From Nitrososphaerota archaeon (GTDB lineage: Archaea > Thermoproteota > Nitrososphaeria > Nitrososphaerales > Gagatemarchaeaceae), in contig JAPCJO010000018.1 in the NCBI GenBank assembly GCA_027886905.1, forward strand, positions 1 through 32,443: 32,443 nucleotides of DNA. Reading direction: 5' to 3'. The stretch's first letter is position 1, and every line of letters starts with the position of its first letter. This document shows, piece after piece, positions 1,729-24,601 of this stretch. The notes beneath the pieces were generated by a model. That model was not told where the DNA came from, searched no databases, and saw only the letters and a program-made list of their open reading frames with translations. The position numbers were made by a program, and so were the translations under genes.

Positions 1729-2526
1729 CTAGTCTTTCCTCAGCAGGTCCTCGTTGGGGTTGGGGAACACCTTCGCCCCCTTGCGCTCTCTTCGTCGCCT
1801 GAATGGCGACCTGGCCGCCATCACGTGCCGCTTGAGGAGCTGGATTCCCAGCGCCGGGTCCACCCCCTTCGGGCAGACAGCGGAGCACGTCCCCGCGAAG
1901 TGGCACCTCCAGACCCCGTGTTCGGTGTCCACCAGGTCGAGCCTCTCCTCTCTCGCCTCGTCTCTGGGGTCCTGAAGGTACCTGAACTCCTGAGCGAGCG
2001 CCTGGGGGCCGGGGAAGAGCGAGTCGGTGGAGCCGGTGGGGCACGACGAGCTGCACAGACCGCACTTTATGCAGTAGGTGAACTGGACGAGGGAGTCCAG
2101 CTCCTGGGGGGTCATAAGGTACTCTCCCGTCGGCGACTCCTGCTCCTTCTCGTCCCCTTTCCTCACGAGGTGAGGGGACACCGACCTGTGCTTCGAGAAG
2201 AAAGACTCCAGGTCGACGACGAGGTCCCTCACTATGGGGAAGTTGTCCATCGGCTGGACCGTCACCGTCGAGGAGCGGAGGTCCTTGAGCTGGGTCTCGC
2301 AGGCGAGACGCGGCCTTCCGTTGATCTTCATCCCGCAGGACCCGCACGAGGCCATCCTGCAGGAGAACCGCATCGCTATCCCGTGGTCGAGCGTGTCCTT
2401 CGCGTAGATCAGGGCGTCGAGGACGGTCATCCCGTCCTTGAGGGGTATGGCATATCGCTCGAGGTGGGGGCGTTCCTCCATGGAAGGGTCGAACCTCTGG
2501 ATCCTCAGCGCGAGCTCGTCGGCCAA
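1729..2526 (-). CDS. sdhB: Succinate dehydrogenase iron-sulfur subunit SdhB
   Basis: SdhB carries electrons from the flavin of SdhA to quinone in the membrane subunits. The N-terminal plant-ferredoxin domain has the 2Fe-2S ligands C56, C61, C64 and C76. The C-terminal domain has C152-x2-C155-x2-C158-x3-C162-P and C208-x5-C214-x3-C218-P, the usual ligand set for one 4Fe-4S and one 3Fe-4S cluster. This is the bacterial/mitochondrial-like ligand pattern, not the Sulfolobus-type variant with an extra cysteine. Length is 265 residues. The start is a TTG that directly follows the sdhD stop with no spacer, consistent with translational coupling. It is the last gene of the sdhA-C-D-B set and converges on sufU. 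Confidence 0.97.
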   Translation of the reverse strand: MADELALRIQRFDPSMEERPHLERYAIPLKDGMTVLDALIYAKDTLDHGIAMRFSCRMASCGSCGMKINGRPRLACETQLKDLRSSTVTVQPMDNFPIVRDLVVDLESFFSKHRSVSPHLVRKGDEKEQESPTGEYLMTPQELDSLVQFTYCIKCGLCSSSCPTGSTDSLFPGPQALAQEFRYLQDPRDEAREERLDLVDTEHGVWRCHFAGTCSAVCPKGVDPALGIQLLKRHVMAARSPFRRRRERKGAKVFPNPNEDLLRKD

Positions 2527-3327: not shown

Positions 3328-3381
3328 CTCCGCGCCTGGGTCGTTCTGGGCGCCCTCCCCGTGCTCTTCCAGCTCGCCAGC

Positions 3382-8084: not shown

Positions 8085-8271
8085 GGCGCTGAGACAGCAG
8101 GAGCCTAATCAGCTCAAGGACAGGCTCTTCGAGCTCCGCGGGGAGCTTGCGAGGTTGAGGAGCCTCACAGCGAGGGGAATGATTCAGAAGCAGAGCGGCT
8201 CCGTGAAGCGCGTGAAGCGAGACATCGCGAGGCTTCTGACGATAATGAAGGAGAAGGGTGCGGTCGAATGA
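8065..8271 (+). CDS. rpl29: 50S ribosomal protein L29 (uL29)
   Basis: This is a 68-residue helical hairpin protein at the tunnel exit of the large subunit. The sequence LKDRLFELRGELARLRSLTARGM is typical of the family. The start is TTG at 8065 inside the end of rps3, with GGAGG ten bases upstream. The end overlaps the next gene in an ATGA, so the two are likely translated in coupling. Confidence 0.95.
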   Translation: MPRVKAKALRQQEPNQLKDRLFELRGELARLRSLTARGMIQKQSGSVKRVKRDIARLLTIMKEKGAVE

Positions 8272-11477: not shown

Positions 11478-12036
11478 CGTCGCCGCAAAGGCGGCCCAGA
11501 GGAAGGAGAGCGGGTCGCGGACCGTCGAGCTCCCTGAGGGCGTCAGCGCGAGCGTCAAAGGCCGGGAGCTCTTCATGAAGGGGCCCAACGGGAGCGCCGC
11601 GAAGGTCTTCCAGAGGATACCCGTCGACGTCGAGGTGAAGGGGAACCAGGTCACGATCAAGCCGTTCACCGGGAAGAAGAAGGACGTCATCTCCGCGAAC
11701 ACGGTCTCTTCGATAGTGAGGGGGCTCGTCCACGGGGTCACCAAGGGCTACGAGTACAAGATGAAGGTCGTCTTCGCCCACTTCCCCGTGACCGTGAAGA
11801 TAAAGGACGACACGGTCGTCGTGGAGAACTTCATGGGCGAGAGGTCGCCCAGGCTCGCGAAGATCCTCGCGGGCTGTAAGGTCACGACAGAGGGAGACGA
11901 TATCATAATAAAGGGAACCTCTCTCGAGCAGATAGGACAGACTGCCGCGAACGTGGAGCAGGCCACGAGGATAAAGCGGAAGGACCAGCGCATCTTCCTG
12001 GACGGAGTCTACGTCTACGAGAAGAAGAGGAACTGA
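11467..12036 (+). CDS. rpl6: 50S ribosomal protein L6 (uL6)
   Basis: L6 lies near the factor-binding site of the large subunit. The real start is the ATG at 11467, giving 189 residues beginning MSTSVAAKAAQRKES; the frame stays open further upstream inside rps8, but that part is rps8 read in another frame. The protein shows VELPEGVSASVKGRELFMKG and the second L6 domain ending in the archaeal pattern ANVEQATRIKRKDQRIFLDG. It overlaps the end of rps8 by 11 bases. Confidence 0.96.
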   Translation: MSTSVAAKAAQRKESGSRTVELPEGVSASVKGRELFMKGPNGSAAKVFQRIPVDVEVKGNQVTIKPFTGKKKDVISANTVSSIVRGLVHGVTKGYEYKMKVVFAHFPVTVKIKDDTVVVENFMGERSPRLAKILAGCKVTTEGDDIIIKGTSLEQIGQTAANVEQATRIKRKDQRIFLDGVYVYEKKRN

Positions 12037-16528: not shown

Positions 16529-17101
16529 ATGGGACTCAGAATAGTGATCGTCGGGGTCGCCGGAGTCGGGAAGAGCACCGTCGTGGCCAAGGCCAACGAG
16601 GCGGTCGCGGGCTCCGCCGTCCAGGTGTTCGGCACCGCGATGTTCGACGAGGCGCTGAGGCTGAAGTGGGTGAAGCACCGCGATGAAATGCGCAAGCTCC
16701 CCGTGAAGAAGCAGGAGAAGCTGCAGGAGGCGGCAGCAGCGCGCATCAGCCGCGGGAAGGGCAAGGTCGTCTTCATCGACACCCACCTCTTCATCAGGAC
16801 GCCGGAGGGCTTCTGGCCGGGCCTCCCACTCAGGGTGATCGAGCCCATGAAGCCGACCCACCTGCTCCTGGTGGAGGCGTCTCCCAAGGAGATACTCGCA
16901 CGCCGAAAGAACGACACGACCAGGTACCGGGACGAGATCACCGAGGAGGAGGTCAGCGAGGAGCTTGAGCTGGCCAGGAGCTTGCTCACCGCCGCCTCGC
17001 TCGTCAGCGGAGCGCCCATGACCTTCATCCACAACGAGGAGGGCAGGTCGGAGCAGGCCGCGAGCAAGATTGCCGCACTTGTGAGGGGTGCGAGAGCCTG
17101 A
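16529..17101 (+). CDS. adkA: Archaeal-type adenylate kinase AdkA
   Basis: This enzyme interconverts ATP + AMP and 2 ADP. The 190-residue protein belongs to the archaeal AdkA family rather than the bacterial one. It has the P-loop GVAGVGKST at 9-17, then the family patterns FGTAMFDEA, HRDEMRKLPV, VFIDTHLFIRTPEGFWPGLP and RRKNDTTRYRD. The real start is the ATG at 16529; the open frame extends upstream into secY but that part is antiparallel coding noise. The stop overlaps the DUF106 gene in a CTGA. Confidence 0.94.
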   Translation: MGLRIVIVGVAGVGKSTVVAKANEAVAGSAVQVFGTAMFDEALRLKWVKHRDEMRKLPVKKQEKLQEAAAARISRGKGKVVFIDTHLFIRTPEGFWPGLPLRVIEPMKPTHLLLVEASPKEILARRKNDTTRYRDEITEEEVSEELELARSLLTAASLVSGAPMTFIHNEEGRSEQAASKIAALVRGARA

Positions 17102-17586
17102 ACGTTGCGATCCCAGACTCGACTCTGATAATCACGCTCACGGCCATCTTCCTCGGCTTCATGTCCAACGTCGCGACGAGGCTCCTGGTCGACCTCAAGC
17201 GGGAGAGGCGGATGCGGGCTGAGGTGGCGGCCTTCGACAAGGAGCTGAAGGAGGCCACCGCGAGCAAGGACAAGGAGAAGCAGGAGAAGCTCAAGAAGAA
17301 AAAGCCGCAGATGGACCAGATGAGGCTCAAGGCCTCCTCGGGGCGGTTCAAGGTGGTCCTCGTGACCTGGCTCCCGTTCATCGCGGTCTACTACCTGATG
17401 GGCGACTTTGTGAGCGGCTGCAAGTTCCCCAGCATCTGCGTCTCCGGAGTCGTCGCCTACTCGCCGATACCCATCCCGTACATCGTCGTCGGCGGGCATA
17501 TGGTCCTGATCTGGTGGTACTTCCTCTCGTCGCTCTCGTTCTCGACGCTGATGACCAAGCTGCTGGGCACGTCCCAGACGATGTGA
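17098..17586 (+). CDS. DUF106 / EMC3-TMCO1-like membrane insertase homologue, CTG start
   Basis: Archaeal DUF106 proteins belong to the Oxa1 superfamily and are thought to help insert membrane proteins; the gene commonly follows secY-adk. Starting at CTG 17098 the protein has 162 residues: TM1 at about 9-29 (STLIITLTAIFLGFMSNVAT), a charged coiled-coil region at about 35-80 rich in Lys/Glu, then two hydrophobic segments (about 86-104 and 125-150). Starting at the first ATG, 17161, would delete TM1. No ATG, GTG or TTG occurs in frame upstream. The CTG sits in a CTGA overlap with the adkA stop, and a GAGGGGTG seven bases upstream can serve as ribosome-binding site. Confidence 0.9.
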   Translation: MNVAIPDSTLIITLTAIFLGFMSNVATRLLVDLKRERRMRAEVAAFDKELKEATASKDKEKQEKLKKKKPQMDQMRLKASSGRFKVVLVTWLPFIAVYYLMGDFVSGCKFPSICVSGVVAYSPIPIPYIVVGGHMVLIWWYFLSSLSFSTLMTKLLGTSQTM

Positions 17587-19244: not shown

Positions 19245-19748
19245 CTAGCCGGGCGCTGAGTCTAGGCGCTTCCCCAAAAGGAGCTCCCCCGGGACGACCG
19301 TCATCTCCCGGTACATCAGCAGCGACCGGAGGCGGCCGTACCTCTTCGCCATCTCCGACCCGTCCACCCTCTCGAAGCCCCTGGAGCCGAAGAGCGTCTT
19401 GGACTCGAGGTTGTCCTCCTCGACGCTCGCGTAGACGTCCCGCAGTCCCATCTTCACGAAGCGGGAGAGCGCGTCGTCCAATAGCCTTCCACCCACCCCC
19501 TGCCTCCTGAAGTGAGGGGGCACCGCGACGTAGTAGACATATCCCGCGCCCTCGGCCAGCACCTTCAGCATGATGAGGCCCGCGTCCTCGCCTTCGGCAG
19601 TGCGAGCGGCCCGGACGACGTCGATGCTATGGAGCGTCCGCCTCGCGTGCCAGAGGTAGAGCCCCTCGAAGCTCTCCTCAAGTATCGGCAGGAGCCTCTC
19701 CCTGTCTCCCTCGGGGACGTCCGCGACCTCGATGCCGGGGCGCGTCAG
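19245..19748 (-). CDS. GNAT-family N-acetyltransferase, CTG start
   Basis: This is a single-domain acetyltransferase of 167 residues if it starts at CTG 19748. The acetyl-CoA-binding motif is R81-R-Q-G-V-G-G87 in VAVPPHFRRQGVGGRLL; the family strand beta-4 precedes it (GYVYYVAVPP), and LFGSRGFERV follows. Substrate is unknown. The first ATG, 19571, would begin inside the fold and delete the N-terminal 59 residues. The frame has no ATG, GTG or TTG upstream of that in this gene. The CTG forms a CTGA overlap with the amidohydrolase stop, with GAGGT ten bases before it. The gene is probably co-expressed with the amidohydrolase. Confidence 0.86.
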   Translation of the reverse strand: MTRPGIEVADVPEGDRERLLPILEESFEGLYLWHARRTLHSIDVVRAARTAEGEDAGLIMLKVLAEGAGYVYYVAVPPHFRRQGVGGRLLDDALSRFVKMGLRDVYASVEEDNLESKTLFGSRGFERVDGSEMAKRYGRLRSLLMYREMTVVPGELLLGKRLDSAPG

Positions 19749-20566
19749 ATAGAGTACAACCTCGAGGCGTTGCGCCAGAGTATCCTCTCCTTGTCCAACT
19801 GACTGACCGCGAGCAGCGATACGAGCGAGAGGCCGCTCTCGTGCGTCTCCACGGGGTAGTCCGTCCCGAAGACGATCTTCTCCGCCCCGCCCGCGTAGTA
19901 GACCGCCTCGCTTATCCTCCTCGCGAGCGTCCGCGCGTACTCCTCGGAGTAGCCCCCGCCCCCGACCATCAGCCCCGAGATGTCGGCGAAGACGTTCGGG
20001 TGCTTGTAGAGCAGCTCGGCGGTGTCGAGGATCCAGGGGTTGCCCATGTGGCAGACGACGATCTTGAGGCCATCCCTCTCGTTCGCGACCTCGTCGAGGG
20101 TGAGCGGGTGGGCGTGCGTCAGGCTGCCCGTGCTGGTCGCGGTGTCGCCCGTGTGGAAGAGGACGGGCAGGTCGTGCTCCTCGGCATAGTCGTAGAGCGG
20201 GGCGAAGACCTCGTCCCGGGCGAAGACCTTCCTGTACCCGAGCCAGACCTTGAAGGCCTTCACGGACCCTCTGTGCTTGCCCGCCAGCCTGAGGGCCTCC
20301 TTCACGGCACCCTTCTCAGGCTCAACGGTGAAGACCGGAAAGAGCGCGTCGCCGCTCCTCTCGCAGAGCCTCACGACCTCGGAGTTCGGCAGCGGCTCGC
20401 CTCCCGCCATCGGGGGGCTCAGCAGCAACCCCCTCCCGACCCCGTTGCTCTCCATCCGCTCAAGGAGCTCCTCCAGGTCATAGCGCAGGCCGTTGAGCTT
20501 GGCGTAGGGCCTGAGCATGTCGTCCTTCCTCCTGCCGGAGCAGTGGATGTGCGCGTCGATTATCAA
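19745..20566 (-). CDS. Amidohydrolase family protein (amidohydrolase 2, TIM-barrel metal hydrolase)
   Basis: From the TTG at 20566 the protein has 273 residues. Metal-binding positions of the amidohydrolase superfamily are present: H6 and H8 in IIDAHIHCSG, H138 in VLFHTGD, H173 in VVCHMGNPW and D236 in FGTDYP. The family includes decarboxylases and hydrolases of ring compounds, but the substrate cannot be read from the sequence. I reject an upstream TTG at 20623 because it lies at or before the probable TATA box (GCTTTAAC, 20596-20603). Transcription should start near 20575, giving a leader of about nine bases. The GNAT gene follows in a CTGA overlap. Confidence 0.88.
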   Translation of the reverse strand: MIIDAHIHCSGRRKDDMLRPYAKLNGLRYDLEELLERMESNGVGRGLLLSPPMAGGEPLPNSEVVRLCERSGDALFPVFTVEPEKGAVKEALRLAGKHRGSVKAFKVWLGYRKVFARDEVFAPLYDYAEEHDLPVLFHTGDTATSTGSLTHAHPLTLDEVANERDGLKIVVCHMGNPWILDTAELLYKHPNVFADISGLMVGGGGYSEEYARTLARRISEAVYYAGGAEKIVFGTDYPVETHESGLSLVSLLAVSQLDKERILWRNASRLYSI

Positions 20567-20595
20567 GCCGGTGCGAAAGTCTTGGGACCGGCGGG

Positions 20596-20603
20596 TTAAA
20601 GCC
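20596..20603 (-). promoter_or_regulatory. Probable TATA box of the amidohydrolase-GNAT pair
   Basis: The minus strand reads GCTTTAAC. The expected transcription start is close to 20575, about nine bases before the TTG start at 20566. Confidence 0.5.
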
Positions 20604-20660
20604 CTTGTTCGCCCGATACGCAAAGTCGAAATACGCTAAAGCTACTGGCGCCTCCGCCGG

Positions 20661-23704: not shown

Positions 23705-24601
23705 GTGTACGGGTCCCTGTTCGCTCTTATGAGCGTCAGTCTCACCCTCACCTACATCACCACGAAGGTGCCCAACTTCGCCCAGGGCGCTCTCGTGACC
23801 GCGGGCATGTACACGGGCTTTGCGCTCTTCAGCATCAACAAGATCAACCCGTACGAGTCGCTGCCTGTCTCCTTCTTGGTTGGGGGGCTCATCGCTATCG
23901 GCATCTACCTCCTCGTGCTGAGGCCTCTCTCCAAGAGAGGGGCCCCGATCATCTCTCTGATGATCGCGACCCTGGCGGTCGACATCATCTTCGTGGGGAT
24001 CTTCGGGATATACTCGGACTACCTCTACCAGGTGAAGGAGGTCTACGACGCGAAGCTGTTCTACGCCCTCACGGGGGCGGACTTCACCCTGTTCGGCGTG
24101 AACGGCGTGGCCTACGCGGCCCCGACGGCGCTCGCGCTCACGACGGTCATCCTCTACCTGGTCCTGACCAGGACTCGCTTCGGCCTCGCCATGAGGGCCA
24201 CGGTGGAGAACTCCAACCTCGCGAAGGTGATCGGGATCAACACCGAGGTGGTCTACGTCACCTCGTGGTTTATCGCGGGAGGGGTAGCGGCCATCGCGGG
24301 GGTGTTCTACTCTTTCTGGCTTGGAGGAGAGCCGGACATCGGCTCAATCCTCCTGATTTCCATGTTCGCGGGCAGCATCCTCGGGGGGCTCAAGAGCATC
24401 TACGGGGCGGTCTTCGGGGGGCTCGTCGTCGGGGGGAGCGAGATTATCGTCACGACACTGGGGGCGCAATACGTGGGGTCTTGGGTGACCGCCTACGAGC
24501 CCGGCATCCCGCTCCTCGTGATGGTAGTGACGCTGCTCGTCCTCCCGGGAGGGATAACCTCGCTTGACTGGAGACGGCTCTTCTCGAGGGGGAGGCAGTG
24601 A
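23705..24601 (+). CDS. livH: Branched-chain amino acid-type ABC transporter permease LivH
   Basis: LivH is one of two membrane-channel subunits. From the GTG at 23705 it has 298 residues and about eight hydrophobic helices, with the LivH patterns VPNFAQGALVTAGMYTG, MRATVENSNLAKVIGIN (the coupling loop) and GSILGGLKSIYGAVFGGLVV. The start is uncertain: the frame is open back to a TAG at 23663-23665, and the 12 residues before the GTG (FALPPYVISAIV) complete a first helix like that of other LivH proteins. The only codons that could begin there are near-cognate (for example ATC at 23669). The GTG at 23705 has no ribosome-binding site. It ends in a GTGA overlap with livM. Confidence 0.93.
   Translation: MYGSLFALMSVSLTLTYITTKVPNFAQGALVTAGMYTGFALFSINKINPYESLPVSFLVGGLIAIGIYLLVLRPLSKRGAPIISLMIATLAVDIIFVGIFGIYSDYLYQVKEVYDAKLFYALTGADFTLFGVNGVAYAAPTALALTTVILYLVLTRTRFGLAMRATVENSNLAKVIGINTEVVYVTSWFIAGGVAAIAGVFYSFWLGGEPDIGSILLISMFAGSILGGLKSIYGAVFGGLVVGGSEIIVTTLGAQYVGSWVTAYEPGIPLLVMVVTLLVLPGGITSLDWRRLFSRGRQ

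Follow-up and report, generated by a model that had tools for sequence, protein, structure and literature searches.

At which codon does translation of the DUF106 gene downstream of adkA begin? The window, that is, the whole stretch of DNA analysed (32,443 nucleotides), is a contig of a MAG from the Gagatemarchaeaceae (group I.1c Nitrososphaerota), uncultured soil archaea. The source genome, G000, is an incomplete MAG (1.61 Mb, 77% complete) in which the window is contig 42, and the genus comparison comprised eight genomes (G000 to G007), all of them MAGs. Those relatives that bear names are Thaumarchaeota / Candidatus Gagatemarchaeum MAGs and thus belong to group I.1c. The original prediction placed the start at a CTG that overlaps the adkA stop codon and treated DUF106 as a single odd gene. 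From the comparisons below, CTG 17098 is very probably the start of DUF106, with re-initiation taking place there and CTG recurring in the genus as a minor start codon. The view of DUF106 as a lone case had to be given up, as comparison pointed to several CTG-started genes in the genus.

Start position of DUF106 at the adkA junction

The gene order secY-adkA-DUF106-cmk-truB was recognized in the window from ORFs and Pfam matches. adkA, which encodes an AMP kinase-like AAA_17 NTPase (Pfam AAA_17, E=2.5e-32), occupies positions 16529 to 17101 of the plus strand, begins with ATG 16529 and terminates with GCC TGA, the stop codon being located at 17099–17101. Together with the CTG at 17098–17100 (plus strand), this stop codon forms a 4-nt CTGA stop-start overlap at 17098–17101 (plus strand). 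The 5′ end of DUF106 reads CTG AAC GTT GCG ATC CCA GAC TCG ACT CTG ATA ATC, and the CTG is the sole start-like codon in frame upstream of the first membrane helix (TM1). This frame stays open between the stop codon at 16966–16968 and 17586, with 129 nt open upstream of the CTG, and ATG, GTG and TTG were absent from it between that stop and the ATG at 17161. The latter (17161–17163, plus strand) is the first in-frame ATG and an internal Met codon, which many homologues lack or do not have in a start-like form. The TM1 core (STLIITLTAIFLGF, 17119–17160, plus strand) sits between CTG and ATG 17161 and would be lost with a start at the ATG. A putative Shine-Dalgarno segment, GAGGGGTG, was located at 17083–17090 of the plus strand, 7 bases upstream of the CTG. 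It also encodes adkA residues, and most of the eight congeners have a purine-rich stretch here. The overlap, the lack of conventional upstream starts, the place of TM1 and the seven-base spacing were all as originally predicted.

The overlap had also been likened to ATGA overlaps elsewhere in the window, and these do occur with equal geometry at 8268 and 8534, as do GTGA at 24598 and TTGA at 1318, 10369 and 18203. The CTGA at 12033 was set aside as incidental, an ATG being present 12 bases on. Both Haloferax volcanii and E. coli have been shown to use termination-reinitiation at overlapping gene pairs (PMC6728339). adkA and DUF106 have the arrangement of such pairs, with a 4-nt stop/start overlap and both genes in one transcript direction. 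Like the ATGA and TGATG overlap pairs of Huber et al. 2019 (PMC6728339), they show the same four-base register and a downstream start within or close to a purine-rich stretch, but differ from them by the CTG start; a term search of the main text of that paper found no mention of CTG.

The position of the start was compared in related genomes. Each of the eight genomes compared within the genus had a four-base NTGA overlap at the DUF106 junction, with CTGA in G000 and its sister species G004, GTGA in the next relative, G007, and ATGA in G001, G002, G003, G005 and G006, so that CTG, GTG or ATG stands at the same place in every congener. G000 and G004 represent separate species and separate assemblies, and their DUF106 proteins are 88% identical. 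The TM1 segment was kept in every relative read at its 5′ end, of which 22 were aligned, and homologues beginning at the position of ATG 17161 and lacking TM1, which would speak against the original prediction, were not found among them. P6 and T9, which immediately precede TM1 or mark its beginning, were at least 90% conserved across the 22 aligned relatives. Mismatches among G000, G004 and G007 were counted by codon position in the DUF106 frame. They were 0.45/0.20/0.20 for the 60 bases before the start and 0.15/0.10/0.33 from the CTG to ATG 17161. The variable base was the adkA third position upstream of the start and the DUF106 third position downstream, a pattern indicating that coding constraint switches frame around CTGA.

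A start at ATG 17161 would have in its favour that this is the first conventional in-frame start codon. Such a protein would lack TM1, which all relatives read have kept and which the family fold needs; the CTG position holds ATG or GTG in relatives; and third-position variation points to a constrained DUF106 frame already between the two codons. The NTGA starts of the relatives, the retention of TM1 and the change of constrained frame therefore lead us to reject the ATG 17161 start, which we consider extremely improbable.

A different junction was observed in G012, a single MAG of genus g6 (L007, about 1953–1990, minus strand). It contained no ATG, GTG, TTG or CTG, only ATC and TTA after GGGAGGTGG, the TTA lying in a TTAG overlap with the TAG stop codon of adkA.

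Probable CTG starts in other genes of the genus

CTG starts were checked against relatives in DUF106 and at least four other genes, in which no in-frame ATG, GTG or TTG gives the conserved protein. For DUF106, GNAT, DHQ synthase II and UbiA, the CTG aligned with canonical starts of orthologues. The GNAT acetyltransferase gene lies in the window itself (19245–19748, minus strand, 167 aa) and has its CTG in a CTGA overlap (19748–19745) containing the stop codon of the upstream Amidohydro_2 gene (19745–20623, minus strand; Pfam PF04909, E=5.3e-33). The next canonical start of GNAT is at +177 nt, and a conventional start list yields only a 108-aa fragment. CTGA was found at this junction in six species (G000, G007, G001, G003, G005, G006) and ATGA in G004, while the G002 copy, located elsewhere, has an ATG start. 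The gene of 3-dehydroquinate synthase II (DHQ synthase II) has CTG in seven of the eight congeners and ATG in G002, in the same 14-nt overlap. Its start context is GGAGGTCATGAGCG CTG; an in-frame TGA is present two codons 5′ of the CTG in G000 and G007, and the G000 gene offers its next canonical start only 96 nt after the CTG. ThpR (LigT/ThpR 2′-5′ RNA ligase-like) has CTG in both species compared, G000 and G004, in the context GGGGGAGGAGCAAGAGAAG CTG CGAGCC. UbiA has CTGA in G000 versus ATGA in G004. Candidates seen in G000 only were genes for an ABC ATPase (C17), a protein with an MGMT DNA-binding domain (C78) and a small protein (C24), a Kef-like gene (C28) and the mevalonate kinase gene (C6), which reads TGA GCG TCC CTG and is probably CTG-started outside a 4-nt overlap. 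The CTGA of a hydroxyacyl-CoA dehydrogenase-like gene (C19) was set aside, as a canonical start 69 bases on could serve.

Gene starts were surveyed in 1.26 Mb of G000 and 0.56 Mb of G004, genes being called with a codon model blind to start codons. Among 206 G000/G004 gene pairs with alignable 5′ ends, 189 had a canonical start in both genomes and seven in neither; in three of these seven (DUF106, ThpR and DHQ synthase II) CTG stood at the same aligned position. The third codon base in G000 is C in 47% of codons (GC3 about 88%), and because C ends so many codons the CTGA string alone was not beyond chance. The test therefore was whether a canonical start was missing near the coding boundary. 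G000 gene pairs without a canonical start amounted to 7/22 for in-frame CTGA versus 7/196 for the other registers (Fisher P=8.8e-5). With DUF106 left out the figure was 6/21 (P=4.4e-4), and with the ambiguous C19 also left out P was 0.002. G004 alone gave 2/10 versus 7/103, the same direction but not significant (P=0.18), and the two genomes pooled gave P=7.6e-5. Beyond chance, then, are this shortage of alternative starts and, for DUF106, the CTG, GTG or ATG that relatives carry at the equivalent position. The Shine-Dalgarno signal is weak genome-wide, and so was the Shine-Dalgarno-based enrichment of CTG over all genes (51 versus 39.8 expected at threshold 5). In genes without a canonical start, CTG occurred 8 times versus 3.0 expected and CTC once versus 4.2, which is suggestive only. 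From these sequence comparisons, the genus probably makes minor but regular use of CTG as a start codon, both at stop-start overlaps and elsewhere.

Three other readings of the DUF106 junction were weighed against initiation on CTG. A programmed -1 frameshift on reaching the adkA stop could yield an AdkA-DUF106 fusion, as the two frames overlap and that of DUF106 is already open well ahead of the CTG. By inspection the site (GCGAGAGCCTGA) has no slippery heptamer, six congeners have ATG or GTG at the junction, and the exchange of CTG and ATG recurs at unrelated genes, which leaves a frameshift very little probability. Still less can be said for the CTG being a sequencing or assembly error from ATG or GTG. 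The window does come from a 77% complete MAG, but CTG is present at the junction in the MAG of a second species, and the GNAT and DHQ synthase II starts were found in six and seven species, respectively. Since G004 is a separate species with a separate assembly, sequencing error is contradicted.

Somewhat less remote, but still unlikely, is a start at a nearby non-canonical codon such as ATC 17110 or GTT 17104, where position would guide the re-starting ribosome and the codon would matter little. ATC 17110, only a few codons on, would keep TM1 as well; the G012 junction offers just ATC and the TTA of TTAG, and a QueC-like gene starts in the ATAG register. In five genes, however, the CTG aligns with ATG, GTG or CTG of relatives, which points to the codon itself, and among the other TGA-register cases ATG and TTG were over-represented compared with third-base usage. 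Initiation on CTG 17098 is thus the reading that we retain.

The QueC-like gene (G000 contig 70, about 3343–3376, plus strand) was seen in one assembly. It has no canonical start before the P-loop, and its frame starts with ATA in an ATAG overlap with the upstream stop. At their expected 5′ ends, Trm5-like, RimK/LysX-like and nucleotidyltransferase-like genes in G000 showed no canonical start and no clear CTG either (contig 77, minus strand, 18699; contig 61, minus strand, 12081; contig 63, plus strand, 1447). As a few genes have neither, some noise from boundary calls or assembly is to be expected.

A proposed route to initiation on CTG

We propose that ribosomes ending adkA would restart one base back on the CTG, as at ATGA and GTGA overlaps. 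The overlap, and probably GAGGGGTG too, would hold the terminating ribosome near the stop codon. CUG, like GUG and UUG, differs from AUG at the first base only. Initiation on CTG would use the ordinary Met-initiator tRNA, making Met the presumed first residue; a scan aimed at this tRNA recovered just a few tRNAs. The ancestor of the CTGA site was probably an ATGA or GTGA overlap. The last adkA codon is Ala (GCN) in seven of eight species, and its third base doubles as the opening base of the start codon; ATGA, GTGA and CTGA are therefore synonymous in adkA, and a mutation to C is silent there. The high GC3 would favour C at the overlap, and initiation in the genus would tolerate CTG. The exact geometry is not required, since DHQ synthase II, ThpR and mevalonate kinase lie outside four-base overlaps. 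Loss of the fidelity factor aIF1 was considered as a cause of the tolerance and rejected, since each of the eight genomes compared within the genus contains SUI1 (PF01253). It is conceivable, though we hold it rather doubtful, that initiation in the genus, perhaps in the family, is relaxed more widely, with CTG as a regular fourth start codon that some genes have conserved across many species, and re-initiation at overlaps guided mainly by position, even onto NTA codons (TTAG, ATAG).

In bacteria and archaea, switches to CUG were almost absent in the survey of Belinky et al. 2017 (PMC5622118), which counted AUG to CUG in 2 of 61,358 ancestral AUG starts, GUG to CUG in 1 of 5,080 and UUG to CUG in 1 of 2,468. 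The rare prokaryotic CUG starts of that study likewise differ from AUG at the first base. In contrast to it, we found several conserved CTG starts in one genus and ATG/CTG exchanges among eight species. A review of archaeal initiation names AUG, GUG and UUG as start codons (PMC7531240), and a term search of it found no mention of CUG. Conserved CTG starts in archaea were not described in the literature searched, which was thin on subscription journals.

If CTG is a conserved start in these archaea, which are abundant in soil, gene finders that do not accept CTG would truncate or miss proteins there. The loss would be 59 residues for GNAT and the first membrane helix for DUF106, and such annotations would also bias the start-codon statistics drawn from them. 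With the CTG/ATG exchanges between sister species, start choice by archaeal ribosomes at coupled genes could be tested on naturally occurring variants.

The DUF106 protein

The DUF106 gene (17098–17586, plus strand) encodes a predicted membrane protein of 162 aa that is, by its sequence, an ordinary member of the EMC3_TMCO1 family and a predicted insertase homologue, as had been proposed; the start codon alone is unusual. PF01956 matched at 58.1 bits (E=1.3e-15), above the curated cut-off of 27.1, over profile positions 16–167 of 169. Profile searches also matched the archaeal insertase homologue MJ0480 (5c8j, E=1.3e-20), whose alignment opens at profile position 6, close to where TM1 starts. 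A further match was TMCO1 (6w6l, 'calcium load-activated calcium channel', E=3.7e-11). TMCO1 was also the best Foldseek match of the structure model (TM-score 0.65–0.67, E=1.8e-5), the pLDDT of the model being only 67, with helices at 7–30, 33–55, 59–105 and 137–155. The family layout of TM1, coiled coil and two more helices was seen in both the alignment of relatives and the model. With archaeal MJ0480 and eukaryotic TMCO1 (PF01956) the protein shares TM1, the cytoplasmic coiled coil and TM2-TM3, and it differs from the family by the start codon only.

The DUF106 proteins of genus g7 are longer at the N-terminus by about 150 residues (L027:1036–1962 and other loci). The L027 extension matches a TIG (IPT) domain, apparently an extracellular fusion to the insertase homologue, and the g7 protein, though fused behind this ectodomain, still keeps TM1. 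In G015, G017 and G062, DUF106 matches were found in two adjacent pieces separated by a short gap, perhaps a coiled-coil insertion.
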